A DNA stretch of 63,256 nucleotides from positions 1 through 63,256 of IMG/VR virus record IMGVR_UViG_3300038621_000255. The stretch is one strand, 5' to 3'. Numbering within the stretch: position 1 is the first letter of the stretch; each line of letters begins with the position of its first letter. The translations under genes and the position numbers were made by a program. This document shows positions 7,215 through 58,525 of the stretch, one piece after another. The notes beneath the pieces are model-generated. The model saw only the letters and a list, made by a program, of their open reading frames with translations, did no database searches and was not told the origin of the DNA. This stretch comes from a virus.

Positions 7215-7703
7215 ATGACCCTAGATCTCTATTTAAAACAGGGCTATGAAGGTAGACCCGGCCTTCTAGATCCCACAGCCCGACAACAATCCGTAAGAAA
7301 TGAAAGCGGCTCAAGCATTGCCCCGGGTCGTTTGTGCGTGGTAACTGGCGGCTCGGATATTCCGACCGTAAAATTGATTTCAGCGTCAAGCGATCACCCC
7401 TTGGGAATAACTCTGAATACCACAATGGCTGGTGACATCGATGTTGCCCTGCCTGACGCTGATGTTGGGACGGTGCTTTACCGGGGTCCGATTTATGTAG
7501 TACCCGAGGTAGCTGTCGATCCTTCCGACCCGGTATACGTACGCCACACATCCCACAGCTCACCGGGCACTTACGATGCGATTGGGCGATTCAGGAACGA
7601 TGCTGATACGGATGGATCGGACACTGCAATGGAATTACCGAAGTGCCGATGGATTAGCGCATCAGCGGCGGGTGGTCTAGCAATTTTAGAATTCGCACTG
7701 TAA
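7215..7703 (+). CDS. Head structural cement / decoration protein
   Basis: A 162-aa Gly/Asp-rich beta protein. VRNESGSSIAPGRLCVV, then DHPLGITLN and GRFRNDADTD resemble small capsid cement proteins encoded directly before the major capsid gene. It would stabilise the expanded shell. It starts at an ATG immediately after the protease stop. The family call comes mainly from position and composition. Confidence 0.7.
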   Translation: MTLDLYLKQGYEGRPGLLDPTARQQSVRNESGSSIAPGRLCVVTGGSDIPTVKLISASSDHPLGITLNTTMAGDIDVALPDADVGTVLYRGPIYVVPEVAVDPSDPVYVRHTSHSSPGTYDAIGRFRNDADTDGSDTAMELPKCRWISASAAGGLAILEFAL

Positions 7704-7726
7704 TAGATAATAAGTAAGGAGAATTA

Positions 7727-8677
7727 ATGGCTACAAAAGCTTTTATTGACGAACAGTTAGAGCTATCTTTAAGCCGTGTAATACAGCAACCTTACCCAGC
7801 TTTAAGGTACGAGAATGGGGAGTTTATTCCCACAATGGCAGACCTGGATCTGGGCGTTAGCCGGATTTCGCAAAGAGTATTAGATGAAGCCGGCCAGGCT
7901 GCATTCTGGGGCGGCGAAGGGGGACAAATACCCGTCGCCGATATTTCAGTAAGTGAACGGACCTATCCCGTGCGGGCAGTCGCTGCTGGCTATCGGGTAA
8001 GCGAAAAAGAAATTGCAGAAGCCGAGCGTGCTAGGAGAAACGGGGAATTGGATATTCCCTTGGGACAGCGCAAAGCCATGATGGCGGCGAGGGCAATCGC
8101 TGAAAAGGTTGACAGCATCGTAGCTTATGGCGAACCGGGTCAGAACTTTACTGGTTTCCTAAGCGATCCTGGTGTAGAGGTAGTGGATTCTTCTTTCGAC
8201 TTTTATAATACTGCCAATACGGCACAAGAGCAGCAAACCGCCATCTTTGAATTCTTCCAGGATCAAATTAGTACGGTAATTGGTAAAGTAGAGCGACTTT
8301 TCCAGCCCACTCACGTACTCCTGCCTCTAGATGTATTTAATCGTTTAAATATTGCCACCATAGATGCGAACAATATTCTGCTGGAAGTACTGCAACGACA
8401 GCTCGCCCCTTATGGCATACAAACAATCACGTGGGATAATCGTCTAAACGCCCAGCAATTATTTGACGCAGGGGTGCGGGGAGACGCAAACAAGGATCGC
8501 CTCGTCTTTTATACACGAAGCCCCGAGGTAATCGAACGCCATACAGGTGTATTGCAGCAAGCTGAGCGGGAACGTTCCAATATGCAGGAATTCGTGCCCT
8601 ACTACCAGGTGATTAGCCCACCGCAGTTCCATTATCCCGAAACTGCGTTGTATGTAGACGTGCCGGTCAAATCCTAA
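7727..8677 (+). CDS. Major capsid protein
   Basis: A 316-aa protein after AAGGAGAATTA. Segments such as VAAGYRVSEKEIAEAERARR, VDSIVAYGEPG, TGFLSDPGVEV and FYTRSPEVIERHTG match the DUF2184-type HK97-fold phage major capsid proteins. It forms the icosahedral shell. It follows the protease/scaffold and cement genes in the expected order. There is no sign of frameshift. Confidence 0.88.
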   Translation: MATKAFIDEQLELSLSRVIQQPYPALRYENGEFIPTMADLDLGVSRISQRVLDEAGQAAFWGGEGGQIPVADISVSERTYPVRAVAAGYRVSEKEIAEAERARRNGELDIPLGQRKAMMAARAIAEKVDSIVAYGEPGQNFTGFLSDPGVEVVDSSFDFYNTANTAQEQQTAIFEFFQDQISTVIGKVERLFQPTHVLLPLDVFNRLNIATIDANNILLEVLQRQLAPYGIQTITWDNRLNAQQLFDAGVRGDANKDRLVFYTRSPEVIERHTGVLQQAERERSNMQEFVPYYQVISPPQFHYPETALYVDVPVKS

Positions 8678-12639: not shown

Positions 12640-13152
12640 ATGCCGGTAATTAACGAAACGCAACTAGGGGCTACCTGGCTTATTGATGGGAATGAGCTTC
12701 CCGTAGGTCAACAAGTAAACTCTTTCGAGGCAAATATTCCCGTTAATCAAGAAAGTTACGAAGCTCTTTCTAAATTATTTGCGGTAGAAATGACCACGAG
12801 TATCGGACCCATGGAGGGTTCGATCACTTGGGCTTCTATGCCTGATTTCCTAAGCTCAATCACTAGGGATTGGCGTACCGTCCACCATCTAATCCTATCT
12901 GGGAACGTAGTTACAGAAACATCTAAATCCACGACCGATAAAATTGTGAAAAGAGTATTTGACCTTTGGTTTACATTCAAAGACGAATTACCTTTAGGTT
13001 CCCGGGAACACGGTACTCCGGCGGAATACGAAAGTACTTTAAATATAAGAAGCATAATTTCTTACGACGATGGGGTAGAACGGTTCGCTTTCAATCCCTA
13101 TGAAGAGATTTCGCGCATTGATGGTGTAGATGTTGTGCTACCCTTGAAATAA
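12640..13152 (+). CDS. Major tail tube protein
   Basis: A 170-aa protein after AAGGAGGATAA, directly downstream of the sheath. VINETQLGATWLIDGNELPV, VEMTTSIGPMEGSI and a later ISYDDGVE fit the tail tube (FII-type) family, which polymerises into the inner tube. Length and order (sheath, tube, chaperones, tape measure) are canonical. Confidence 0.88.
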   Translation: MPVINETQLGATWLIDGNELPVGQQVNSFEANIPVNQESYEALSKLFAVEMTTSIGPMEGSITWASMPDFLSSITRDWRTVHHLILSGNVVTETSKSTTDKIVKRVFDLWFTFKDELPLGSREHGTPAEYESTLNIRSIISYDDGVERFAFNPYEEISRIDGVDVVLPLK

Positions 13153-13173
13153 GTAAAGATTTAACGCCTACAT

Positions 13174-13902
13174 ATGTCCGAAAAGAATAATCAGCAACAA
13201 CAGGAAATCGATACCCACCAAGGGGGTAACCAACCAGCGTTCGCCAACTATAAAAAGGTCCAAGTATACCCCGACCCTCTAGACGATGAGGATTTCGATC
13301 CCGACGAAAGGGTAATCTATGCCTTGGAGGATCCTCCGGGGTCTTATTTTTGGCAATATAAATACCTGGCGGCGCATCAATCAGAGAATTCAAACCAAGC
13401 TGAAGAGTGGCTTTTAGCAAATATCCTTTTCTTGGAAGGTGAGGAGGATCAATCTATCGGGATGCGTCGATTCTCGACTGAGTACCCATTTCAAGATTTC
13501 CAAGCTTATGCCTATATGAAAGGGTACGTGGATATGGTTTTGAGCGCCCCGTATGGCACTGGGCATCGGATTGTGATAAGTAAAAGAAACGAACAAGGGG
13601 AACCCATTTTGGCGACTACTGATAGCGGCAAAGAGATATCGGTAGCACCCAATTTGACTGCCTCCCAAGGGCAAACCTACTTCAATTATTTACAGGAGTC
13701 CGCAACGAAAGCATTTAAATATATCCTTACACAAGCATTTAAATTAAATGGCCGATTAATCGAACCGGAACAATTACCGAAAAGAAATAAGAATACAGGG
13801 ATTTTCGAGGGAGGCGATCCGGAGCTAACTTGGAAGGTTTACACTGTTTGCGAAGCCTATTTTTTAAAAACCTACTTAAAACCGTATCTAAGCAAGACTT
13901 GA
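13174..13902 (+). CDS. Tail assembly chaperone, upstream frame
   Basis: A 242-aa acidic protein between tube and tape measure, where tail chaperones are always encoded. The N-terminus is Gln-rich (NNQQQQEIDTHQGG). Near its end the in-frame heptamer T TTA AAA (13863-13869) is a standard -1 slippery site. The -1 frame continues open into the ORF ending at 14057. The expected products are this protein and a ~294-aa fusion, analogous to lambda gpG/gpGT and Mu gp41/42. The chaperones coat the tape measure before tube assembly. Confidence 0.75.
   Translation: MSEKNNQQQQEIDTHQGGNQPAFANYKKVQVYPDPLDDEDFDPDERVIYALEDPPGSYFWQYKYLAAHQSENSNQAEEWLLANILFLEGEEDQSIGMRRFSTEYPFQDFQAYAYMKGYVDMVLSAPYGTGHRIVISKRNEQGEPILATTDSGKEISVAPNLTASQGQTYFNYLQESATKAFKYILTQAFKLNGRLIEPEQLPKRNKNTGIFEGGDPELTWKVYTVCEAYFLKTYLKPYLSKT
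13863..13869 (+). promoter_or_regulatory. -1 frameshift slippery heptamer
   Basis: T TTA AAA read in frame with the upstream chaperone codons. A -1 slip enters the frame of 13911-14057. No strong pseudoknot is obvious directly downstream. Confidence 0.65.
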
Positions 13903-13910
13903 TATTTCTA

Positions 13911-14057
13911 ATGTGGACATCAAAAGGGGGATTAAGTATTCAATACTTAGAAAATCTCCCTATTCCAGAATTGGAGGCTTGGATAGAAGCCTCCAATTCT
14001 TTTTTAGAGAAGATTTATCCCAAGGAGGGAAAGGGAAATGGCAACCGTCGAGCTTGA
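13911..14057 (+). CDS. Tail assembly chaperone, -1 frame extension
   Basis: An ORF of 48 codons from ATG 13911, open in the -1 frame since before the slippery site. MWTSKGGLSIQYLENLPIPE resembles second chaperone domains, which often read 'W..G.S...i..lp...l'. It ends inside the first codons of the tape measure gene, overlapping it by 20 bases. Translation is probably by frameshift from 13174 rather than by independent start; there is no good ribosome binding site. Confidence 0.65.
   Translation: MWTSKGGLSIQYLENLPIPELEAWIEASNSFLEKIYPKEGKGNGNRRA
13969..14006 (+). terminator. Terminator-like hairpin before tape measure gene
   Basis: 12-bp perfect arms (13969-13980 and 13987-13998), 6-base loop, then C and six T. 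It looks like an intrinsic terminator but lies inside the chaperone frame, 32 bases before the tape measure start. It may attenuate transcription or stimulate recoding. Confidence 0.55.
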
Positions 14058-17000
14058 ATTTAGGGCTGATACAGCTAATGCTACCTCGGCTGTGCGCCGC
14101 ATTGCTGAAACCACCCAGCGAATACAGGGAGCAGCACGCCGCGCTCAAAGGGGTATTGCTGGAATCAGCGATAGAGCAGGAGAGGGGCGAACGGCTGTCA
14201 AACGTTTGCGGCGGAGTTTTGAGGATGTCCGGTCGGCTGCGGAACAAATCTGGACGGCTGACCTAGCCTCACAGTTTACAGGTTTCTTTACAGATGCCGT
14301 ACAGGGAGCTATGGAATTCCAGGAAGCACTTACTCAGATAGGTAAGGTAGGGGGTGCTTCTGTAGAACAAATGGAAGCATTGGCCGATCCTTCCCGACGG
14401 ATAGATCCTTCAACCTTAGCCCCTAATGAGTTGAATATGGGGAAAGTCAAGGCTAAGATCGCCGAAATTAACCAGCGGTCTAGTTTTACAAAGCATCAGA
14501 TTGCCGGGATTATGGAAGAGGTTGCCAAGCTAGGTGTGCGCTCACCCAAGGAATTAGGTAAGTTTGTGGATTTAATGGAAGAAGCGGGGACAGCGTTTGA
14601 TATTGATGCTTCAAAAGTAACCAACCAAATGGGCAAGTTAGGGAATATATTTGGAATTATCGATGCTGAAGCAGGCACTGTAGATATTGAGCGGTTACGT
14701 GCGTTTGGAAACTCCTTGAACAATGTAGCTGACAATATGGCTTCGGTGACCGAACGAGAGATACTAGACTTTGCAGAAAGATCAGGGGGCGTTGGTAAGG
14801 TTGCCGGTATAAGTGAGACTCAAATCACAGCGATTGGTGGTGCTTTCAAGTCAATGGGGGTTGAAACAGAACGGGCATCAACAGCTTTCAAGAATTTTAT
14901 TTTGGCTGGTATGGGGGCTGCGAGTAACAGGGATCGGCAGTTCTTCGAGCAGATAAGTAAGCAAATGGGAGTAACTGCCAACCAAGCAGAAAAAATTGGA
15001 GATAAAGCCGGACGTGCCTTCAAAACCTTAGGCATTGATGTCAGGAAATTCCAGAGCTTAATGGAAGGGGGGAAAGGTGCAGAAGCTTTAGTACATTTTC
15101 TGGAGACTGCAAAAGCTAAAAGTAAGGAAACGGGTAAGAGCATTAAAGAGCTGAGCGCTTTTGGGGCACTTTCAAATATTCTCGGGAAAGGACAGGCTGA
15201 TATCTTCGCCACTGCATTCCAGAACGTAGACCAGCTCAAGCGAGCATTAAAACTCGCTAATGATGGTGCTGAGGGTCTAGGAAATACTTTGGCTGGTACC
15301 TTCGCACTAAGGGGAACAACAGCCCAAGCAGCTCTGGATGGGTTAGAGAGCGAACTAAAAAATATAAAAGGGGCACTAGGATCGGCTCTAGTGCCTACCG
15401 TACAATCGGCAGCACAGGGATTAAACGACCTGCTAGACCCCGTGCGCAAGTTCCTATCCAATAACCAAGCCATGGTTGCTTCCATAATCAAGGGTACTGC
15501 AGCCTTTATCGGTGCAAACGGTGCGGTGCTCGGTTTTCATGTGGGCATTACTGCCTTAGCCACCGCAACGAAGGTACTAGCCGGAGCTTGGGGAAGGGCT
15601 ACAATTGGCGCTATCCGGTTTGGAAGTGCCCTAAACAAAATTGCACAAGCTAGGTTGGTTACAAACTTTTCCTCTTTAGCGGGGCAAATTCCTGTGGTTG
15701 GTGGACGGTTAAACCAGTTGGCAGGGAAACTATCTGCCCTAAATCAAGCACCAGCTAAAAGGAGTACTTACCAACGGATAGGAACGAGTATTACAAGTGG
15801 CTTGTCAACTATTCCCCCTGCGGCTGCTTCCGCTCGAAGTGGGCTAGGAAGGGTTATTGGATCGCTGCGGAAAACCAGAGATGCAGGAAATGCAGCGAAA
15901 GGTTCCCTGAAAAATTTAGGATCTATTTTTTCAAAGGTAGGAGGTGCTGCAGGAAGTATAGCAACAGGAGCAGAAGGAATAGCAGCGAATGCAATTGTAG
16001 AAGGTGTGTCTGGTTCGAGAGATAGGAATTCAGAGACTAAGCCCTATCGGCGATTAAGGGATCAAATGGGGCGAGTTTCCCAAACCTCCCAACGTATGAG
16101 GGGATCTGTTCGGCGATCCTTCTCAGGTGCTTCTGAATCTGCTAAGGACTTCTTCGCTTCCCTATCAGGGAGATCGGCTCTAAAATCTTTCGCTTCGCAA
16201 TCCACTTTTGCTGCCATGGGGGCAACTTCCTTGGGGACACAAGCCGCAGTAGCTTCGGGCGGCGTGACTAGTTTGGGAGTCGCTTCCCAAACAACTGCAA
16301 CCAGGGCGGCAACATTAGGGGCAAAAGTAAGGATGGCTGCCGCTTCCTTTGCTACTTGGGCACCCGCAATCGCAGGGGCAGTCGCAGGTATTGCTGGCCT
16401 GGTAGGGGCAGTGAAACTCCTACAAAAGCACCTAGGAAACATGGAGAAAGAAAGGGAGAACCTGGAAGAAATAGGCAATCGGAAAGCCACCCAAGGATTG
16501 GCAAATGATGTTGGCAAACTGGCGAACCGGATGCGCGAAAGTGGGAAGGCTTTGCCCGAAAAGAAATTCAAAAGCCACGTGAAATTCTTAGAGAAAATGC
16601 AGAAAAAATATGGCGGGTTAGAAAATCACATAAAAAGCTTCAAAAATCTACAAAATGAATTGCAATCCACGGGTGCAGGCACTCTGCAAGGACCAGAAGC
16701 CGATCTTGGTAAAAGCAAGAAGCAATTGCAGTTGATGGCAGAAGCTAGGAAGCAACAGCAAAAAACCGGACCGGAAAACCCCTTTGATTTCAGCATGGAG
16801 GATATTCCTTCAATCGAAGAGATGGCGAGGGGCTACATGAGTATTGTAAACCGGGCCACTTCTACCCTAAAAAATGGCTGGACTGTGGTTTGGCAGTGGG
16901 TGAAAAATATTGGAAATCAACTACAAAGGGCACTCCAAATTGTAAACATTAAGTGGAAGCAGGTAAGGAATTCTGTTACCAATTTAGGAAAAGATATCGC

Positions 17001-18864
17001 TAGTGGTATCCCCGGACCTTTGAAAAAAGCTTTCAAAACTGCTGTTTCTTGGTTGCAAGAAAAAATCAAATCAATATTTAATAATATCCCAGGACTCGAT
17101 AGATTCATTAAATCCCACAAAGAGCAAGAAAATATAGCAAAGGCAACACAGAGCGGTACTGCGGATCTATCCAAAGAAACAACAAAGCAATTAACGGAGG
17201 CAGACAAAGTAGCAGATAAAGCAGCAACGCAAAGCCCGGTTGATATTGACCCTGCTAAAATACAGACCCAACTGTCCTTGCTAAAAAGCTTAAATAGGAC
17301 TTGGAAAAATAAAGCTGAAACAGCAAAGAGCGATCCGGCAAAGAATAGATTCCAAGGTGAATCAAAAGCTATTGAGGCACAAATAAAACGACTGAAAGAT
17401 CTAATAAAACTCAAGAAAAAAGCAGCTAGCACAAAAATCTCAGGCACCCAAACTCAAGAAGAGGCTGTCGGTGGTGCGGCGACAGATACGCTAGGAACGC
17501 AGAAACCCAAGCCCGTACAGCAACAGGTGCAACAGCAGGTACAACAACAGGTGCGGACCCAACAACAGCAACCACCACAAGCACCCCAGCCGCCAGCACC
17601 TAAAGTGCAACCAGCACCGCAGAAAGTAACCCAGCAAGCGCAGCAGGCAAAGCGAGGGGCACAACAGGCACAAGCACTGGTTACACAGGCAAAACAACAG
17701 GTGACTCAAGCAAAACAGGGATCGCAGCAAGCGCAAAAACAAGCAACCCAAGTACAGCAACAGGCACAGCAAGCCAAGCAAAAAGCTGCCCAAGTGCAGC
17801 AGCAGCTAACCCAATTAAAAACAAAAATCACCCAATCTCTACGAACTTTAGGACCGAAAATTAAAACTGTGTTGCAAACTTCGTTGCAACAGGTTATTCC
17901 CATTGTTCGGCAGAATATTAATCGGATTAAGCAAGAATTTCAAAAGCTAAGTACGCAGATAATTCCTCTGCTCAACCGTGCCTTTTTGCGAATGAAGATC
18001 GCCGTTATGACCTCCATGATGGGCATCGTGACGACGGTCCGATCTTCGGTGCAAAGGATTATACAACAATTCAATAAAGTTGGTCCTCAGGCGCTGCAGG
18101 CAGGGCTGGCGATTGGAAGGAATTTTGCGCAGGGAATCCGGCAAAGTAAGGGGCAAATATCGGCGGCGGCAGATGCGATGGCGGCGGAAGCACGTGCAGC
18201 GATGCCCGGTTCAAACGCAGAAAGAGGACCGCTAAGCGATTTGCTCAGTACGGGACCAGCATTGGTGGAAAGTTTCGCCAAAGGAATTAAACCATCGTCC
18301 CAGCTTCGCCACCAACTAAATGCAATTGCCGGGCAAGCGAGGGAGGCGCTAAATATAGAGCCTTCTGCCCCGGACAATCGCGGATTGTTCCAACAGCGAT
18401 TCGGGGTAGACCAGCAGCCTGAGGTAAGAACCCAACAACCGAATACACCCACTTTGCAAGGGCTAGGTTCTTTGGTGCAGAAATTTGGGGTACTGCAGAA
18501 GCCCGAAATCATAACTGAGCAACCCAATCTGCCCTCAATTTCTCGAAATTTAGGCACCTTTTCTCAACGATTCGGAATCAATAGGCAGGGAGAAGAAACT
18601 AACGAAGAATCCCGCCCAAGGGGACTACAAACCCGACCTGCTTTCCCATCGGGACAGCAGCAGAATGTAACGCAACAACAGAACCAGAATCGAAATACAG
18701 TGCGATCGCAGCCAACGGTAACTGTGAATTTAACTGTGCACGCCACTGATAACGAAAACTTGATCACCAGGATTCGAGAATCGGCTAGCGACTTGGCAGA
18801 TACCCTTGTCGAGGAATTAGGAAGAAGGGAGGAATTGAACTTCGGTGGTGGATTACCAGATTAA
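14038..18864 (+). CDS. Tail tape measure protein
   Basis: A 1608-aa protein, the longest in the window, after AAGGAGGGAAAGGGAA. The N-terminal ~430 residues carry the TP901-type tape measure core (QEALTQIGKVGGAS, ISETQITAIGGAFKSMGVE, FGALSNILGKGQADIF). Hydrophobic segments lie near residues 480-520 and 765-795, as is usual for proteins ejected through the membrane. Residues ~1160-1270 are an extended Gln/Ala repeat (QQVQQQVQQQV), which may come from repeat expansion. It sets tail length and leaves with the DNA. The C-terminus (NENLITRIRESASDLADTLV) may contact the baseplate. Confidence 0.93.
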   Translation: MATVELEFRADTANATSAVRRIAETTQRIQGAARRAQRGIAGISDRAGEGRTAVKRLRRSFEDVRSAAEQIWTADLASQFTGFFTDAVQGAMEFQEALTQIGKVGGASVEQMEALADPSRRIDPSTLAPNELNMGKVKAKIAEINQRSSFTKHQIAGIMEEVAKLGVRSPKELGKFVDLMEEAGTAFDIDASKVTNQMGKLGNIFGIIDAEAGTVDIERLRAFGNSLNNVADNMASVTEREILDFAERSGGVGKVAGISETQITAIGGAFKSMGVETERASTAFKNFILAGMGAASNRDRQFFEQISKQMGVTANQAEKIGDKAGRAFKTLGIDVRKFQSLMEGGKGAEALVHFLETAKAKSKETGKSIKELSAFGALSNILGKGQADIFATAFQNVDQLKRALKLANDGAEGLGNTLAGTFALRGTTAQAALDGLESELKNIKGALGSALVPTVQSAAQGLNDLLDPVRKFLSNNQAMVASIIKGTAAFIGANGAVLGFHVGITALATATKVLAGAWGRATIGAIRFGSALNKIAQARLVTNFSSLAGQIPVVGGRLNQLAGKLSALNQAPAKRSTYQRIGTSITSGLSTIPPAAASARSGLGRVIGSLRKTRDAGNAAKGSLKNLGSIFSKVGGAAGSIATGAEGIAANAIVEGVSGSRDRNSETKPYRRLRDQMGRVSQTSQRMRGSVRRSFSGASESAKDFFASLSGRSALKSFASQSTFAAMGATSLGTQAAVASGGVTSLGVASQTTATRAATLGAKVRMAAASFATWAPAIAGAVAGIAGLVGAVKLLQKHLGNMEKERENLEEIGNRKATQGLANDVGKLANRMRESGKALPEKKFKSHVKFLEKMQKKYGGLENHIKSFKNLQNELQSTGAGTLQGPEADLGKSKKQLQLMAEARKQQQKTGPENPFDFSMEDIPSIEEMARGYMSIVNRATSTLKNGWTVVWQWVKNIGNQLQRALQIVNIKWKQVRNSVTNLGKDIASGIPGPLKKAFKTAVSWLQEKIKSIFNNIPGLDRFIKSHKEQENIAKATQSGTADLSKETTKQLTEADKVADKAATQSPVDIDPAKIQTQLSLLKSLNRTWKNKAETAKSDPAKNRFQGESKAIEAQIKRLKDLIKLKKKAASTKISGTQTQEEAVGGAATDTLGTQKPKPVQQQVQQQVQQQVRTQQQQPPQAPQPPAPKVQPAPQKVTQQAQQAKRGAQQAQALVTQAKQQVTQAKQGSQQAQKQATQVQQQAQQAKQKAAQVQQQLTQLKTKITQSLRTLGPKIKTVLQTSLQQVIPIVRQNINRIKQEFQKLSTQIIPLLNRAFLRMKIAVMTSMMGIVTTVRSSVQRIIQQFNKVGPQALQAGLAIGRNFAQGIRQSKGQISAAADAMAAEARAAMPGSNAERGPLSDLLSTGPALVESFAKGIKPSSQLRHQLNAIAGQAREALNIEPSAPDNRGLFQQRFGVDQQPEVRTQQPNTPTLQGLGSLVQKFGVLQKPEIITEQPNLPSISRNLGTFSQRFGINRQGEETNEESRPRGLQTRPAFPSGQQQNVTQQQNQNRNTVRSQPTVTVNLTVHATDNENLITRIRESASDLADTLVEELGRREELNFGGGLPD

Positions 18865-18879: not shown

Positions 18880-19200
18880 AACGCCTCTGCCAGATCTACC
18901 TAAAATCCCCTCTGTGTGGAGATTACAGCAAATATTACAGGATATATTACCCGATCTAGTAATACTGTAATAAAATCCAAAATCTGCATGGTTGAGGGAT
19001 TACAGCGATCCGCATAAACCCGGTTCGTAATACCCTAGAATAAACCCCATTTTGCTCCCTAATCTCCTGTACGTGGTGGTTCCAGCGTTTTTACCTTCTA
19101 AAATTGCTGGAATATTATATTTATTACAGTGGTTGTAGCCCCTCTAAAATCTCCTGTGTGTGGAGATTATGGGTTATTCTATTTTTTATTACGGGTAGTT
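18880..19200. repeat. AT-rich palindrome block II
   Basis: Non-coding block holding a 104-bp unit (18910-19013) that is the exact reverse complement of 43693-43796, plus further boxes such as tctcctgtgtgtggagatta at 19151-19170. It separates the virion operon from the replication region. No gene is seen here. Confidence 0.8.
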
Positions 19201-43384: not shown

Positions 43385-43840
43385 ATCTCAATTTTATCAC
43401 CCTTGCCGCTGTAATAATTAGGCATAAATCGGTGTAATCTCCACCAACAGGGAATTATACGGTTTTGGATAGAATTTAGCCAGATTTTTATTACAGCTTT
43501 TATTATAGCCCCATAATATGCCTACAATCTCCACACAGAGCAGATCTCAGCAGGTCTTTCTCCGGTCGGGATAAAGCCATAATAAAAATTATATTACAGT
43601 CCTTCACCCCTGCAAAATCCCTAAAATCTCCTGTACGTCTGGATTCCAGGCTAATTACAAGGGGTCGCAGCAAAAATTACAACCGGGTCTACGCGGATCG
43701 CTGTAATCCCTCAACCATGCAGATTTTGGATTTTATTACAGTATTACTAGATCGGGTAATATATCCTGTAATATTTGCTGTAATCTCCACACAGAGCGAA
43801 TTTTGACCCTATTTGAATATACTATTGTATACTGTGTTAC
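43385..43840. repeat. AT-rich palindrome block III
   Basis: Non-coding. It contains the exact inverse of the 104-bp unit of block II at 43693-43796, many TGTAAT/ATTACA boxes and tctccacacagag motifs. It ends at a TGTATACTGTGTTAC motif (43827-43841) that recurs at other blocks. 43842-43976 is otherwise empty apart from a short inverted repeat (gggatacc/ggtatcc). Confidence 0.8.
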
Positions 43841-50161: not shown

Positions 50162-50190
50162 AGCCCTGGTAGCAAGTACCAGGGCTTTTT
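50162..50190. terminator. Terminator between convergent genes
   Basis: AGCCCTGGTA (50162-50171) with TACCAGGGCT (50177-50186), then TTTT. Confidence 0.88.
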
Positions 50191-50569
50191 AGTAGGGGTA
50201 GTCGTTCGATTGAAATTCCTTCAACTCTTCAACCGGGAGGTTGAAGAACTTCGCAAGCATCTCTATCTCAGCATCTAGTAGATTTTGCTCCGAAATTTCG
50301 CGGTTACGTATCGCCAGTAATCGCTCTTCGGGGATTCCGGTGTGAGAAGCGATCCTGCGAATTTTCCCATAATTTCTTGGCAGCAAATCTCCTATCTTGC
50401 GGTCACAATCTAAGGGCAATAGCTCTCCGTGTTTCTGATAGTGAATCAAGTCGGCACGCAATAACGCCTCGATTCTTTCGCTTTGAAACTGAGAATCCGG
50501 CAGGGCTAGCTGGTGATATTTCCTGAGCAGGGAGGGAAGGGCAATATTGATTCGGTGAGAATAATCCAA
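50189..50569 (-). CDS. Putative HTH protein (126 aa)
   Basis: Residues ~68-118 (NYGKIRRIASHTGIPEERLL, then EIEMLAKFFNLPVEELKEF) have the helix pattern of Cro/C1-type domains. The N-terminal half is helical. The start is a TTG without a clear ribosome binding site. It faces away from the GTAAC array and the gene at 50771, a layout common for regulator pairs. It could be a lysogeny repressor; direct evidence is lacking. Confidence 0.6.
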   Translation of the reverse strand: MDYSHRINIALPSLLRKYHQLALPDSQFQSERIEALLRADLIHYQKHGELLPLDCDRKIGDLLPRNYGKIRRIASHTGIPEERLLAIRNREISEQNLLDAEIEMLAKFFNLPVEELKEFQSNDYPY

Positions 50570-50662
50570 AGGGTTTTCTAGAGCGCTTCAATCGCCTATT
50601 CTAGCGCCTTGCGTACCCTTTCTGTAAAATTATAGAGATGTTATGTCTTTGAAGGCTTGACA

Positions 50663-50971
50663 GGTTACTAAGGTTACAGGTAACCTAAAAAGGTAACCGT
50701 AAGAAATGCAGAGGTAACTCAAGGTAACTTACGGTAACCTTAAGTAACTATTGGAAAAGGAGAGTAACTGATGGATAGGATTCAGGATATGCAAGATTTT
50801 CAACAAATTAAGGATAATCCAGGTAACCCCTGGGTAACCGGCAGGGAAACCGATTCAGGTAACGAACATGTAACCCCATACGTAACCTCTGAAGGTTACC
50901 AACGTAACCAAGATGAGGTTACGGATACAGAAGAAACAAAAGAAACCAAGGAAGAGGGAGAAAACGTAACC
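50663..50971. repeat. GTAAC/GTTAC array, 18 copies
   Basis: 18 copies of GTAAC or GTTAC (most as GGTAAC or GGTTAC) in about 310 bases. Nine are upstream and nine inside the first 70 codons of the gene at 50771. They start right after a TTGACA (50657-50662). Spacing is irregular and orientation is mixed. Candidate operator, partition or origin array bound by the HTH protein encoded there (inference). Confidence 0.8.
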
Positions 50972-51589
50972 TCTGATGGTAGGGATGAATTTGAACCTAC
51001 CGAGCCAATCACCCAAAAAGAACTGGCCCAGAAATTAGGAGTCAAGCGCCCCTATGTGGGGAAAATCCTAGGAGAATTGAAGAAGTATTTTCCCGAAAAT
51101 GAACTCTACGAGGGGCGTAAGCTATCTGTATTCGCCCAAGAACAGATCCTAGATTACAGATCCCTAGGGGCTAGCGCCTATCGCAAAGAGATGGAAAAAG
51201 CATCTAACAATGACAGTGATGCCGGAGGTGCTATCGAATTGCAAAAACCAGAAATGCAGAAACCGAATATTCCTAACGTAGAGCCGGATATCCTACCCAA
51301 ACAAAACTGGAATGCGGAAAAGATTGTAGATTGCTTCAGCCGCGCCCAGCTGGCAAAACAACAAGGGGCAAACGCACTCCAAGGTGCAATTGACAGCAAG
51401 GTTTCCACCCAAAGAAACTGGCAGACTTTCCAAGAAACAGAATTACGAGATACTTTCGCCCAAGGATGGGAACAGGGAGCAAGGAAAGCCCAAGCATACG
51501 CAGCGGGTGAAGAAGCTGCCTTCCAACAGTTCCTTCAGCAGATGGGGAAGTCATTTCAAAACGAAAATTCCCAATCGGAATCGGAATAG
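50771..51589 (+). CDS. HTH protein encoded within the GTAAC array
   Basis: 272 aa, ATG after AAAGGAGAGTAACTG. The first ~75 residues are Thr/Glu-rich and probably disordered. Residues ~78-125 (ITQKELAQKLGVKRPYVGKI, then YEGRKLSVFAQEQILDYRS) form a helix-turn-helix followed by a wing-like segment. The C-terminal half has Gln/Ala-rich helices. Half of the GTAAC copies lie in its own coding sequence, so autoregulation or a partition/replication complex is likely. Its stop overlaps the next GTG start. Not a recognised ParB or Rep family. Confidence 0.7.
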   Translation: MDRIQDMQDFQQIKDNPGNPWVTGRETDSGNEHVTPYVTSEGYQRNQDEVTDTEETKETKEEGENVTSDGRDEFEPTEPITQKELAQKLGVKRPYVGKILGELKKYFPENELYEGRKLSVFAQEQILDYRSLGASAYRKEMEKASNNDSDAGGAIELQKPEMQKPNIPNVEPDILPKQNWNAEKIVDCFSRAQLAKQQGANALQGAIDSKVSTQRNWQTFQETELRDTFAQGWEQGARKAQAYAAGEEAAFQQFLQQMGKSFQNENSQSESE

Positions 51590-52032
51590 TGTTGACTGCC
51601 CTGGCAATTGCCAACCTTTCTGCGCTTGCGGAATATCTTGGTAAATACGAACAGAAGCGCGACGCGGCTTTGGCAAGTCAAACTGCACAATCCCGCTACG
51701 AGAATGGCTGCGTATTTGTAAAGGCGATCGCATCCGACGGTAAACCAGCATCGCTAATCCCCAACACCCCCGTTATTGATAGGAGTAGTGCAGGGTTTTT
51801 CCCAGCCGGGACGACGGTATGCGATATTTATGGCAACACTGGGCGGATCCAGGTAAAAGAACTCGAATACCGCTACCTCTCCCCAAACGGGCGTTTTCAA
51901 TATCCCAAAGGGGCAAAAATCCCGGTGATTGACCCGGCTTCCTTGGCTTATACAGGAACTCCCCCACACAAAAAAATACCCGATGGCGCCCCCATTGGGT
52001 ATATAGGACGTATCTCTAATATCCAAAGATAA
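51589..52032 (+). CDS. Hypothetical protein with N-terminal hydrophobic segment
   Basis: 147 aa from GTG overlapping the upstream stop (TAGTG). The first ~17 residues (LTALAIANLSALAEYL) could be a signal or membrane anchor. The rest is a beta-rich polar domain with two Cys (NGCVFVKAIASDGKP, GTTVCDIYGNTGRIQV). It belongs to the unit leading to the membrane ATPase. Family unknown. Confidence 0.65.
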   Translation: MLTALAIANLSALAEYLGKYEQKRDAALASQTAQSRYENGCVFVKAIASDGKPASLIPNTPVIDRSSAGFFPAGTTVCDIYGNTGRIQVKELEYRYLSPNGRFQYPKGAKIPVIDPASLAYTGTPPHKKIPDGAPIGYIGRISNIQR

Positions 52033-52086: not shown

Positions 52087-52626
52087 ATGCAAGTAGTCGA
52101 TGCCGAGCGTGTTGGTTCTGGTGAAAGCAAGGCCAGCACGTCTGCAAATAATAGCACCCAAAGTGCGCTTAAAAGTTTCTTCAAGAATAAACGCACTATC
52201 AAAGCCGTCCTCATTGTGAGCCTATCCTTTTTACTAGGTTTGGTTTGGGTCTTGAATTGTCAACCATACTTAAGTGCTGCTGAAAATCTATGGGGTATAG
52301 CAGCCTCAAGAAATACGAACAGCGGCGTGATAGGAAACCTTGTCTTTGCTTCAGTTATAACCCAATGGTTGTGGACACTCTTTGGAATCTTCCTGTGCGT
52401 TGGGTTGCAGTTGCTCGAATTCCTGCCAGCTCTAAATTGGAATATTAGCAGGAAAAAGGCACGCGTAGCTCGTATGGCTAGCTATGTGGTTGACCTAATT
52501 GTGCTTTGGTCGGTCTACCCAATTTCTAGCCTTCCCCTCAATTGGTGGCACTTGATTCTAATGGTTTTAGCTTTGATAGCTGTTGAGATGGTGTTTTATC
52601 CCCTTGCACTTATTAAAGATTCTTAA
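52087..52626 (+). CDS. Multi-spanning membrane protein (179 aa)
   Basis: Four hydrophobic segments: AVLIVSLSFLLGLVWVL (~40-57), VITQWLWTLFGIFLCVGLQL (~91-110), VVDLIVLWSVYPISSL (~133-148) and LILMVLALIAVEMVFYPLAL (~155-174). A polar N-terminal tail of ~35 residues precedes them. Strong GGAGGTGAG. It ends 10 bases before the membrane ATPase gene and may form a complex with it. No known family. Confidence 0.75.
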   Translation: MQVVDAERVGSGESKASTSANNSTQSALKSFFKNKRTIKAVLIVSLSFLLGLVWVLNCQPYLSAAENLWGIAASRNTNSGVIGNLVFASVITQWLWTLFGIFLCVGLQLLEFLPALNWNISRKKARVARMASYVVDLIVLWSVYPISSLPLNWWHLILMVLALIAVEMVFYPLALIKDS

Positions 52627-52636
52627 GGAGATTCTC

Positions 52637-53932
52637 ATGGATTTATTTAGGCCTAACGACTGGCGCTCTCACGAGTGGAAATCGGCAATCGAACCCCACA
52701 CAAACCCTTTCAAGGCACTAGCGGTTTTTGTTCTGGGTATCGTTTTAGGGTTTTTCGTAAACTTCCTACTTGGTCCCTTATTTGGGATTGTGGTAGGAGG
52801 TAGCCTTGTTGCTTGGGCATTCGTTATTGAGTGGAAACTTGGGAGTGCCGAAGATGGTGTATTAACGGACGGGGTTATCGCCCCCTTTATCAAGCACAAA
52901 GCCGATTTCCATCAATACCTCAGAGGTGTAGGAAAAGAGCGCGTGAGGGCTGAGATAGAACAGGCATTGGAAGACGGGCACGAAATATCCCCTTTTGCCC
53001 AAAATTGGTATAACGCAGATAAGAAGGGTAAACCTACCATTTCGGAAACTTCCCCTCTGCAACGTTTGAGGGAAGTTCCGGAAAAACCAACAGAGAAGCG
53101 TTCGTCGCCCACTCCACGACAACCCAAGGAAAATACCGGACCGCAAAAAGAGGAGGAGGACAACAACGGCAAGGAAGAGAGAGAGGAAGAAGAAGACATA
53201 AATCCTTTTTGGGAAATTCCCTACGCGCAATTGGTTATTTTGGCAGGGATGCAAGGATCGGGAAAGACAACCACCTTGGCGGCAATTATAGAGCAGAAAC
53301 TTAAACAGCAGGCTTTTGTTTTGGTTTGCGATCCCTTCTACTCAGCTGGTAAGCACTTCGGCCTTCCCGTAGTTGGGCGTGACCCAGAAAACCGGTTTAC
53401 AGATATATCAGCCGCCATGGAGTGGTTTGGGCAAATTGTCGAAGGAAGGTTGGTTAAGCAGGCAAAGTTTGAGAACTACGATCCCGTCGCCGACGATGTT
53501 CATATCTGCTTGGTTGTGGACGAGTTTACAAACCTTAGCAATAGTTTGGAGCCAACTGTATTGGCAAAACTCTGGGACGACAGTTTACAAACGTTGCGAA
53601 GATTGAATTTAAGCGTAATCCTTGCCACCCACAACCTACGCATCCCCGGTCTTGGCGGACAAAAGGCAGTTGCCTCAAAAACCGAGGCAATTTCCAACCA
53701 ATCAATGCAGTTCAAGTTACAAACAAAAATCAACAGAAATCGACAACCAGGGGAATCACCAAAAATCCCAGCAGGTAAGGCTAAGTTTAAACGCGAAGGG
53801 GAAGATGATTTCTACGAAGTAAAAGTACCAGAGGATTTTAAACCCTCCAATTTGAATTTTGATTTCCGGCACCTAACTGGGAAAGAAAAACACCCCAATT
53901 GGCGTAAAGAAGTAGGCTTAGAAAATCAGTAA
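52637..53932 (+). CDS. Membrane-anchored P-loop ATPase (HerA/FtsK/VirD4-like)
   Basis: 431 aa from the ATG after AAGGAGATTCTC. Two membrane segments (AVFVLGIVLGFFVNFLL; GPLFGIVVGGSLVAWAFVI) lie at residues ~25-62. A charged linker follows (KEEEDNNGKEEREEEEDINP). Then come Walker A AGMQGSGKTTT (~203) and Walker B HICLVVDEF (~290), plus VILATHNLRIPG, a sensor-like strand. The layout is that of membrane-anchored DNA translocases and coupling proteins. It might act in partition, conjugal transfer or DNA entry. Specificity is unknown; the ATPase call is firm. Confidence 0.75.
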   Translation: MDLFRPNDWRSHEWKSAIEPHTNPFKALAVFVLGIVLGFFVNFLLGPLFGIVVGGSLVAWAFVIEWKLGSAEDGVLTDGVIAPFIKHKADFHQYLRGVGKERVRAEIEQALEDGHEISPFAQNWYNADKKGKPTISETSPLQRLREVPEKPTEKRSSPTPRQPKENTGPQKEEEDNNGKEEREEEEDINPFWEIPYAQLVILAGMQGSGKTTTLAAIIEQKLKQQAFVLVCDPFYSAGKHFGLPVVGRDPENRFTDISAAMEWFGQIVEGRLVKQAKFENYDPVADDVHICLVVDEFTNLSNSLEPTVLAKLWDDSLQTLRRLNLSVILATHNLRIPGLGGQKAVASKTEAISNQSMQFKLQTKINRNRQPGESPKIPAGKAKFKREGEDDFYEVKVPEDFKPSNLNFDFRHLTGKEKHPNWRKEVGLENQ

Positions 53933-53944
53933 AAGGAGTACAAG

Positions 53945-54202
53945 ATGGCATTACAACGCACCTTGAAACAAAAGCGCGATCTAGTAATCGGTGGTATACT
54001 CCGAACCTTACGATATGAGGGATTTACAACCAACCAAAAAATACTAGATCGATTAATAAAGAAGATCCAACCAAAGGACTTTTCCAAGGATAAATGGGTT
54101 GGCATAGAGACAAAGAAAAAGGGAAGAAAAAACTACCTGGTAATTAATTTCTTTAAAGGGGATGAAGTAATTAAATCCCAAAAAATGGAGATTCGCAAAT
54201 AA
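53945..54202 (+). CDS. Small basic protein (85 aa)
   Basis: Lys/Arg-rich protein (TLKQKRDLVIGGILRTLRYE, ETKKKGRKNYLVINFFK), probably nucleic-acid-binding. GGAGTACAAG precedes the ATG. Overlaps the next start by one base. Together with the ATPase it suggests a DNA-handling unit. Not recognised. Confidence 0.65.
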   Translation: MALQRTLKQKRDLVIGGILRTLRYEGFTTNQKILDRLIKKIQPKDFSKDKWVGIETKKKGRKNYLVINFFKGDEVIKSQKMEIRK

Positions 54203-54651
54203 TGGCTAGTGGTAAAATACACGAAAGGATTAATCTCTTTGGGTCAATAATAGCAGTAAGTGCCGTTGGTGCGATCGCCAAAGAACCTATCTTAGGATTG
54301 CTAGTGGGTGCCGGAACCCTAGTTGGCACCTACCTCCTTAGTCCCGATCTAGATTGCCGGGGCGCTTTTCACGCAAAATCCTGGTGGCGTTGGCATCGGA
54401 TCGGGTTGGGGTGGTATTGGTCGCTCTACGCCCAAACAATTCCCCACCACCGGCACTGGCTCAGTCACTCGATTGTAATAAGTACAGCGTATCGGGTTCT
54501 ATGGTTGGCGATTCCCCTGGCTGCAATACTATATGCTCTGCCCTTAGAAATTGACCCCAACGCAATCATCACCACCCATTGGAGATTCTTCGCTGCTTTC
54601 TACGGTGGGTTAGAATTATCTACAATCTTGCACTTACTGATGGACCTCTAA
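54202..54651 (+). CDS. DUF2227-like metal-binding membrane protein
   Basis: 149 aa. ASGKIHERINLFGSI, YLLSPDLDCRG, and HHRHWLSHSIVI match a family of cyanobacterial membrane proteins with a His-rich site (DUF2227). Several hydrophobic segments lie between. Function of the family is unknown; a metal-dependent hydrolase similar to YdjM has been proposed. Last gene of the module, closed by the terminator at 54656. Confidence 0.75.
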   Translation: MASGKIHERINLFGSIIAVSAVGAIAKEPILGLLVGAGTLVGTYLLSPDLDCRGAFHAKSWWRWHRIGLGWYWSLYAQTIPHHRHWLSHSIVISTAYRVLWLAIPLAAILYALPLEIDPNAIITTHWRFFAAFYGGLELSTILHLLMDL

Positions 54652-57934: not shown

Positions 57935-58525
57935 AGGTACCAAGCAACCACCATAATATTTTTATTACAGGGGTACGAAAACGCTGTAATCTTCTGTGTG
58001 TGGAGATTGTAGGTATATTATGGGGGCTGTAATAAAAACTGTAATAAAAACGCAGCATAAAAATATTACAGTGCGCGATCGCAACCAGAATATTTTTATT
58101 ACAGAAGGTGCGGAAACGCTGTAATCTCCTATGCGACTGAATTCTAGGTAAATTATAAGGTCGTGATGGCATGGACTGTAATAAAAATAATATTACACCG
58201 TAATAAAACGCTGTAATCTCCTGTGTGCGGAGATTACAGGCTCGTAACGAGGTCGTAATAAAATAGCGAGCGCAGGGGCATAATTACGCAGCTGTAATAA
58301 TAACCAAAACCCGCTTTGTGTGGAGATTACAGCACTTATAATATCCAAAATGTAACACACTATACTTACCCCTTTTATAATCGACCTCAAATCCCCTGTG
58401 TGTGGAGATTACAGCAAATATTATAGGGTATACGCACAGATCTAGTAATACCGTAATAAATGCTGTAATCTCCTGTGCGACTGGATTTGAGGTCGATTTT
58501 TAGAGTTGGTTGTATAACGTGTTAC
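57935..58525. repeat. AT-rich palindrome block IV
   Basis: The longest block, full of TGTAAT/ATTACA boxes and TAATAAAA runs. Clear elements are CTGTAATCTCC-N7-GGAGATTACAG (58211-58239) and two 36-nt arms (58381-58416 and 58461-58496), which are inverted repeats except for a central 9-base segment. It lies between the leftward terminase genes and the rightward accessory genes. No ORF is credible. Confidence 0.8.

Follow-up and report, generated by a model that had tools for sequence, protein, structure and literature searches.

A GTAAC array across the start of a helix-turn-helix gene in the operon of a myophage FtsK/TcpA-class ATPase, and comparable arrays at related plasmid motors

The window considered here, by which we mean the whole stretch of 63,256 bp that was analysed, is an IMG/VR virus contig. 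The preliminary description looked upon its array as that of a cyanobacterial plasmid, a view that the gene content does not support: the contig is a myophage record, not an evident plasmid, and it carries a full myophage gene set comprising tail sheath, Mu-type portal, baseplate J, P2-type tail proteins and tape measure, together with major capsid protein, cement protein and TerL, the last with distant relatives. Thymidylate synthase and ribonucleotide reductase are encoded as well, as are a polymerase (PolA), a clamp and clamp-loader subunits of its own. The window proteins scanned include no recognisable integrase, relaxase, ParA or Rep, nor was any gene for lysogeny, plasmid replication or a relaxase recognised in the window, and the record, a single and possibly incomplete contig, has no exact terminal repeat of 21–400 bp. 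The host is a matter of two encoded domains, DUF4346 and CAAD, which point to a cyanobacterium. The CAAD domain, known from cyanobacterial aminoacyl-tRNA synthetases, occurs here in a phage protein whose gene adjoins DnaX-like and delta-like clamp-loader genes (Table 1).

What lies around the array? A divergent open reading frame and an operon face each other across an intergenic region (50570–50770) that the array fills before running on past the ATG of the first operon gene. The operon encodes, in order, a helix-turn-helix (HTH) protein of 272 residues, a protein of 147 residues, a membrane protein of 179 residues, an ATPase of 431 residues, a protein of 85 residues and a DUF2227 protein, and the genes are tightly spaced. 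Neither ParA, ParM nor TubZ was recognised among the operon proteins and most of the larger open reading frames of the window. Elsewhere in the window five intergenic clusters are built of another word family, TATTACAG / GGAGATTACAG, with 85 matches at up to one mismatch versus 43 ± 6 expected; the AT-rich cluster at 57.96–58.46 kb is a candidate origin or regulatory region.

Table 1. Features of the window (positions in the 63,256-bp contig)
Feature	Position	Strand	Remarks
Divergent 126-aa ORF	50189..50569	-	possible Cro/C1-type regulator, weak match, E 0.01–0.03
TTGACA	50657..50662	+	possible -35 box, from sequence; no good -10
Array part 1	50664..50768	both strands counted	nine GTAAC/GTTAC between the divergent ORFs, upstream of the HTH gene; starts 50664, 50673, 50680, 50693, 50714, 50724, 50734, 50744, 50764
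Putative DNA-binding protein, orphan	50771..51589	+	272 aa; from ORF, weak HTH match and model
Array part 2	50823..50970	both orientations	nine GTAAC/GTTAC in two reading frames, first 67 codons of the HTH gene; starts 50823, 50834, 50859, 50870, 50882, 50895, 50904, 50918, 50966
Putative helix-turn-helix	51008..51085	+	residues 80–105; weak matches, over residues 78–105, to HTH_Crp_2, HTH_3, MarR_2, HTH_ParB
147-aa operon protein	51589..52032	+	start overlaps HTH stop codon
179-aa operon protein	52087..52626	+	membrane helices predicted
Membrane ATPase, FtsK/TcpA class	52637..53932	+	no C-terminal DNA-binding extension; start could be 52583
85-aa ORF and DUF2227 membrane protein	53945..54651	+	same operon likely
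CAAD-domain phage protein	44287-44895		adjoins clamp-loader genes
TATTACAG / GGAGATTACAG clusters	1936-2154, 7698-7786, 18921-19194, 43409-43785, 57963-58470		five clusters, intergenic

The array itself consists of 18 copies of GTAAC on either strand (palindrome GTWAC) at 50664–50970, spanning 307 bp. A recount on both strands upheld the copy number and positions first reported, as well as the passage of the array across the ATG into coding sequence, nine copies lying after 50771. No other 5-mer of the window clusters as strongly (local Poisson p = 5e-21 for the array): of the 108 GTAAC on both strands of the window, the 90 outside the array are scattered over the remaining 63 kb, and at no second spot in the window do four GTWAC fall within 150 bp. 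The extended consensus approximates AGGTAACCT, with C at +5 in 13 of 18 copies, G at −1 in 9 and A at −2 in 11. The sites are mostly spaced 9–14 bp apart, with neither strict helical phasing nor a single strict period. Five of the in-gene copies are read as VT codons (frame 0) and four as GN, RN or GY (frame 1). When the amino acids were held fixed and codons were sampled from the other window genes, 3.4 ± 1.3 copies were expected versus 9 observed, and none of 20,000 draws reached 9; thus the GTAAC word itself appears to be under selection at the DNA level, acting through codon choice in the HTH gene. The preliminary description had also remarked that the TTGACA box lacks a good −10, and this held: TAACCT, which lies downstream within a repeat, agrees with TATAAT at only 3 of 6 positions, and a promoter scan returned nothing.

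The protein encoded over the array has no homologue in the viral contigs, genome contigs, phages, plasmids and 386 cyanobacterial genomes searched. Its HTH is suggested by profile matches with E values of 0.002–0.13, all under the curated cut-offs, and by a single-sequence model that is poor overall (mean pLDDT 48.8), in which the HTH helices reach about 72 and are accompanied by long C-terminal helices, and in which the N-terminus, the part encoded by the array, is of low confidence. The sole trace of ParB is the HTH_ParB match at E 0.13, and the protein contains no Rep-type initiator domain and is encoded beside no AT-rich flank, in agreement with the earlier remark that the locus matches neither a known ParB-parS nor an iteron-Rep pair. 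Because of the position of the array at the start of the operon, it is plausible that the HTH protein represses its own operon.

The ATPase gene lies in the same operon, with the array 1.7–2 kb before it. By RecA fold, profile and structural comparison the protein belongs to the FtsK/HerA/VirD4 class of DNA translocases: its alignment profile matches TcpA, the coupling protein of pCW3 (E 1.5e-8), and FtsK (E 5e-6), and its model, of residues 185–420 with pLDDT mostly above 80, aligns with TcpA (Z 17.0, 201 residues, 2.9 Å) and with FtsK (Z 16.4, 220 residues, 4.0 Å), in agreement with Foldseek. It contains a Walker A motif and an N-terminal membrane segment, and it may translocate DNA with ATP. 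Its remote relatives are found first on a Calothrix plasmid and then, by profile, in other cyanobacteria, and identity to the plasmid relatives is about 17–23%. Motor queries of the viral contigs gave no match, so the module has not been seen in another virus; two viral contigs, L002 and L003, matched neither the HTH protein nor the motor and may be fragments.

Do the related motors have arrays of their own? About 45 loci with motor relatives, the window included, were scanned for clusters of short words; the relatives are mostly on plasmids of filamentous cyanobacteria. A 3′ array was called where a cluster with p < 1e-8 fell at the 3′ end of a gene. With C-terminal domains assigned as type a or type b by profiles that were built partly from the same proteins, the arrays being unused in building them, a 3′ array is present in 15 of 17 motors with either domain, the exceptions (L061 and L070) being type b motors, and at 8 of 335 other gene ends of the same loci, which served as a control. 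Among the other 28 motors there are five arrays (L019, L068, L069, L071 and L073), all in motors with sequence beyond the motor core. None passes the threshold in the 18 motors whose sequence stops shortly behind the core (the window, L004, L016–L018, L020, L023, L072, L074–L078, L082–L084, L086 and L087), the window ATPase stopping at residue 431 with neither domain, and none in five motors with some C-terminal extension (L079, L080, L081, L089 and L090). The arrays of both types are dense and consist of 5–7 bp words. In type a motors, the array lies inside the linker-coding part of the gene and is built of GGTTCA (L022, L066) or CGTTTC (L021, L056). In type b motors, the array lies at and directly behind the stop codon and is built of AGACAC in eight loci and AGACAG in three. 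Because the AGACAC loci are related plasmids, the tallies of motors with an array do not represent independent events. The in-gene arrays of the relatives occupy several frames, usually in both orientations, and exceed nearly all synonymous-codon shuffles.

The plasmid records with a motor are mostly 29–60 kb replicons of Nostoc, Tolypothrix and Calothrix, and most are typed as mobilizable. Those examined carry CyRepA1-type or DUF3987 replication genes together with ParG, one carries ParM, and two are of MOBP relaxase type; since these plasmids have ParG, ParM or MOBP genes of their own, partition and nicking are encoded apart from the motor. Several other repeats were seen in the same collection of loci. 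In L023 (17711–18093), 14 copies of GCTGACA lie inside the linker-coding part of a replication-type gene (14919–18725); in L083 (15315–15592), seven copies of CCGCACC lie toward the 3′ part of a plasmid primase/Rep-like gene (12820–15927); in L075 (11687–11852), six copies of ATATAGG directly precede a ParM-like gene, as in parC; and on the cyanobacterial contig L090 (7118–7217), palindromic TTGCACGTGCAA-type repeats precede a ribbon-helix-helix-like gene. The AGATTG array of L077, striking at first, looks like a plain repeat between genes.

The C-terminal domain and the array move together as a cassette among the plasmid motors. For example, the motors of L054 and L055 are 96% identical and their C-termini 41%, and the word is AGACAC in one versus AGACAG in the other. 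Likewise, L058 and L059 (motor 96%, C-terminus 36%) show the AGACAC/AGACAG switch again, and in L056 versus L057 (motor 85%, C-terminus 26%) CGTTTC stands against AGACAC. Conversely, L054 and L057 have motors of only 41% identity and C-termini of 92%, and AGACAC is common to both. Motors up to 97% identical that differ in the C-terminal domain thus differ in the array. This joint exchange is the strongest evidence that the C-terminal domain reads the array, and it fits what recognition of the Streptomyces TraB/clt kind predicts.

The motors that lack such a domain often belong to operons headed by a small HTH gene, which is followed by genes for coiled-coil or membrane proteins. With the 5% limit from random windows, about 1e-6, as the yardstick, repeats where the HTH gene starts are clear in the window and in L019 (GCATACA, five copies), modest in L083 (ACGCAC, four copies) and L084 (ACGCAT, four copies), and weak or absent in the other domain-lacking relatives, which make up most of these loci. 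The four GTAAC copies before the HTH gene of the Calothrix plasmid L004 were too weak and were left uncounted. Four loci (L016, L017, L018 and L004), on chromosome-size contigs and a plasmid, have a conserved operon of HTH, coiled-coil, membrane, membrane, FtsK-class ATPase, membrane and hydrolase-like genes. On the simplest reading of these arrangements, recognition, meaning HTH plus array, could either form part of the motor or stand apart from it as the leading gene of its operon.

We propose that the array binds the HTH protein encoded over it and that the two together give a membrane DNA-translocase module its means of recognising DNA, a proposal that we regard as about evenly poised between right and wrong. 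Weighing against it are the orphan status of the HTH protein, its HTH match under the cut-offs and its poor model, the low identity of the motor to its relatives, the weak or missing repeats at the HTH genes of most domain-lacking relatives, the motors that have a C-terminal domain or extension but no array, and the failure to recognise any lysogeny, plasmid replication or relaxase gene in the window. HTH dimers would bind the palindromic GTWAC sites cooperatively, their occupancy of the array would shut the operon promoter, and the binding would build a large nucleoprotein complex. This complex would tether the phage genome to the FtsK/TcpA-class ATPase, either directly or via the small membrane proteins of the operon, and the ATPase would then pull or deliver that genome, either to segregate an episomal prophage or to pass the DNA on to a neighbouring cell. 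On the plasmids, the DNA-binding-type domain forms the C-terminus of the motor and the array lies in or behind the motor gene; in the window, domain and array would be supplied by a separate first gene. Because the arrays of the related plasmid motors change together with the DNA-reading domain, the window array probably serves as the place where the virus DNA docks in order to be moved or kept. The computations establish the array, selection on it at the DNA level, the class of the motor and, in the relatives, the cassette-like linkage of domain and array. We infer the step from the plasmid family to the window by analogy; that the HTH protein binds the array, that it couples to the motor and that the module segregates DNA or transfers it between cells are to be read in the same conditional sense.

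The array could instead be a purely transcriptional operator, through which either the HTH protein or its divergent Cro/C1-like neighbour controls the divergent promoters, by repression or as a switch, the in-gene sites extending the operator and the motor being uninvolved. The way in which the array fills the divergent intergenic region and continues beyond the ATG would suit such an operator, as would the weak HTH match of the divergent open reading frame. However, 18 sites over 307 bp exceed the usual operator, and the sites extend 200 bp into the gene at a density above the codon-use prediction. Some arrays of related modules also follow a stop codon, a place that hardly suits an operator. 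We consider this explanation unlikely. In phage lambda, iterons lie inside the gene of the initiator O, and a replication origin with its initiator would similarly account for an array in a linker-coding stretch of the gene for a phage DNA-binding protein, and this phage does encode PolA, a clamp and clamp-loader subunits; the array inside the plasmid rep gene of L023 is comparable. Yet there is neither an AT-rich unwinding region beside the array nor a GC-skew turn at it, the downstream genes encode membrane proteins and a translocase but no helicase loader, and the second, AT-rich array near 58 kb is the better origin candidate, so that an origin here seems improbable. With these same absences, and that of ParA, ParM and Rep from the operon, the centromere- or origin-binding protein first suggested lacks support. 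Least probable, if by a little, is a classical partition centromere with a ParB/ParR-like adaptor and a host or unrecognised ParA/ParM, working independently of the ATPase: parC/parS regions typically have an array that overlaps the adaptor gene, and L075 has its repeats before a ParM-like gene, but the operon contains none of the ParA, ParM or TubZ partners of ParABS and ParMRC systems, and the related plasmids have a separate ParG, sometimes ParM, besides the motor.

We suggest, tentatively and with more doubt than confidence, that filamentous cyanobacteria harbour an undescribed family of dsDNA-translocation systems analogous to TraB-clt, in which domain and array are plug-in cassettes passed between plasmid motors, and that the cyanophage has a split version that holds its genome in the filament or moves it along. 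In the literature searched we found no description of the cyanobacterial arrays, which does not prove that there is none. A survey judged 88% of cyanobacterial plasmids probably immobile, without the full set of relaxase, VirB4 and VirD4 (PMC8600333). For the many small Nostocales plasmids that carry it, a motor family with plasmid-specific arrays would provide a way, open to test, of spreading or being retained, and if each motor reads its own array, several similar plasmids would have a way to coexist. The presence of a motor module in a myophage suggests a DNA-handling device common to phage and plasmid. Moreover, nature has already performed the domain-array swaps, and with them the recognition code can be put to a direct test.

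Finally, how does the locus compare with known systems? In ParB-parS, ParR-parC, Omega heptads and lambda O-ori, an adaptor or initiator acts on arrays in or near its own gene; the window differs in that it has neither an NTPase partner from one of these families nor a profile match to them. With regard to the motor alone, TcpA of the Clostridium perfringens plasmid pCW3 and FtsK are the best relatives of solved structure, although distant, at 15–18% identity in the structural alignment. The SpdA2-sps unit resembles the window in combining a small DNA-binding protein with palindromic sites in its own gene on plasmids with FtsK-class transfer: the palindromes bound by SpdA2 of the Streptomyces plasmid pIJ101 lie within the gene that encodes it, and its loss affects segregational stability but not transfer (PMC4170104). 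That unit has one to three palindromes of 12 bp, the window 18 five-bp sites. A further comparison is with the Streptomyces transfer proteins. TraA of pWTY27, an FtsK-like protein with two membrane helices, binds a clt that takes in 16 bp at the end of its gene plus the 159 bp next to it and contains TGACACC repeats (PMC3583192), and TraB of pSVH1 reads 8-bp repeats and moves dsDNA (PMC12857230). These systems have a membrane-anchored FtsK-class motor that recognises, sequence-specifically, a cluster of 5–9 bp repeats adjoining or overlapping its gene, with a motif that varies from plasmid to plasmid (PMC3583192, PMC12857230), and the best fit to them is found in the cyanobacterial plasmid relatives, whose motors have the C-terminal domain. 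The window departs from TraB-clt in that it belongs to a phage, its HTH and array lie in a separate first gene, and its motor has no type a or b domain. On the features compared it falls outside the TraB-clt type, but it may work like a clt or sps unit.
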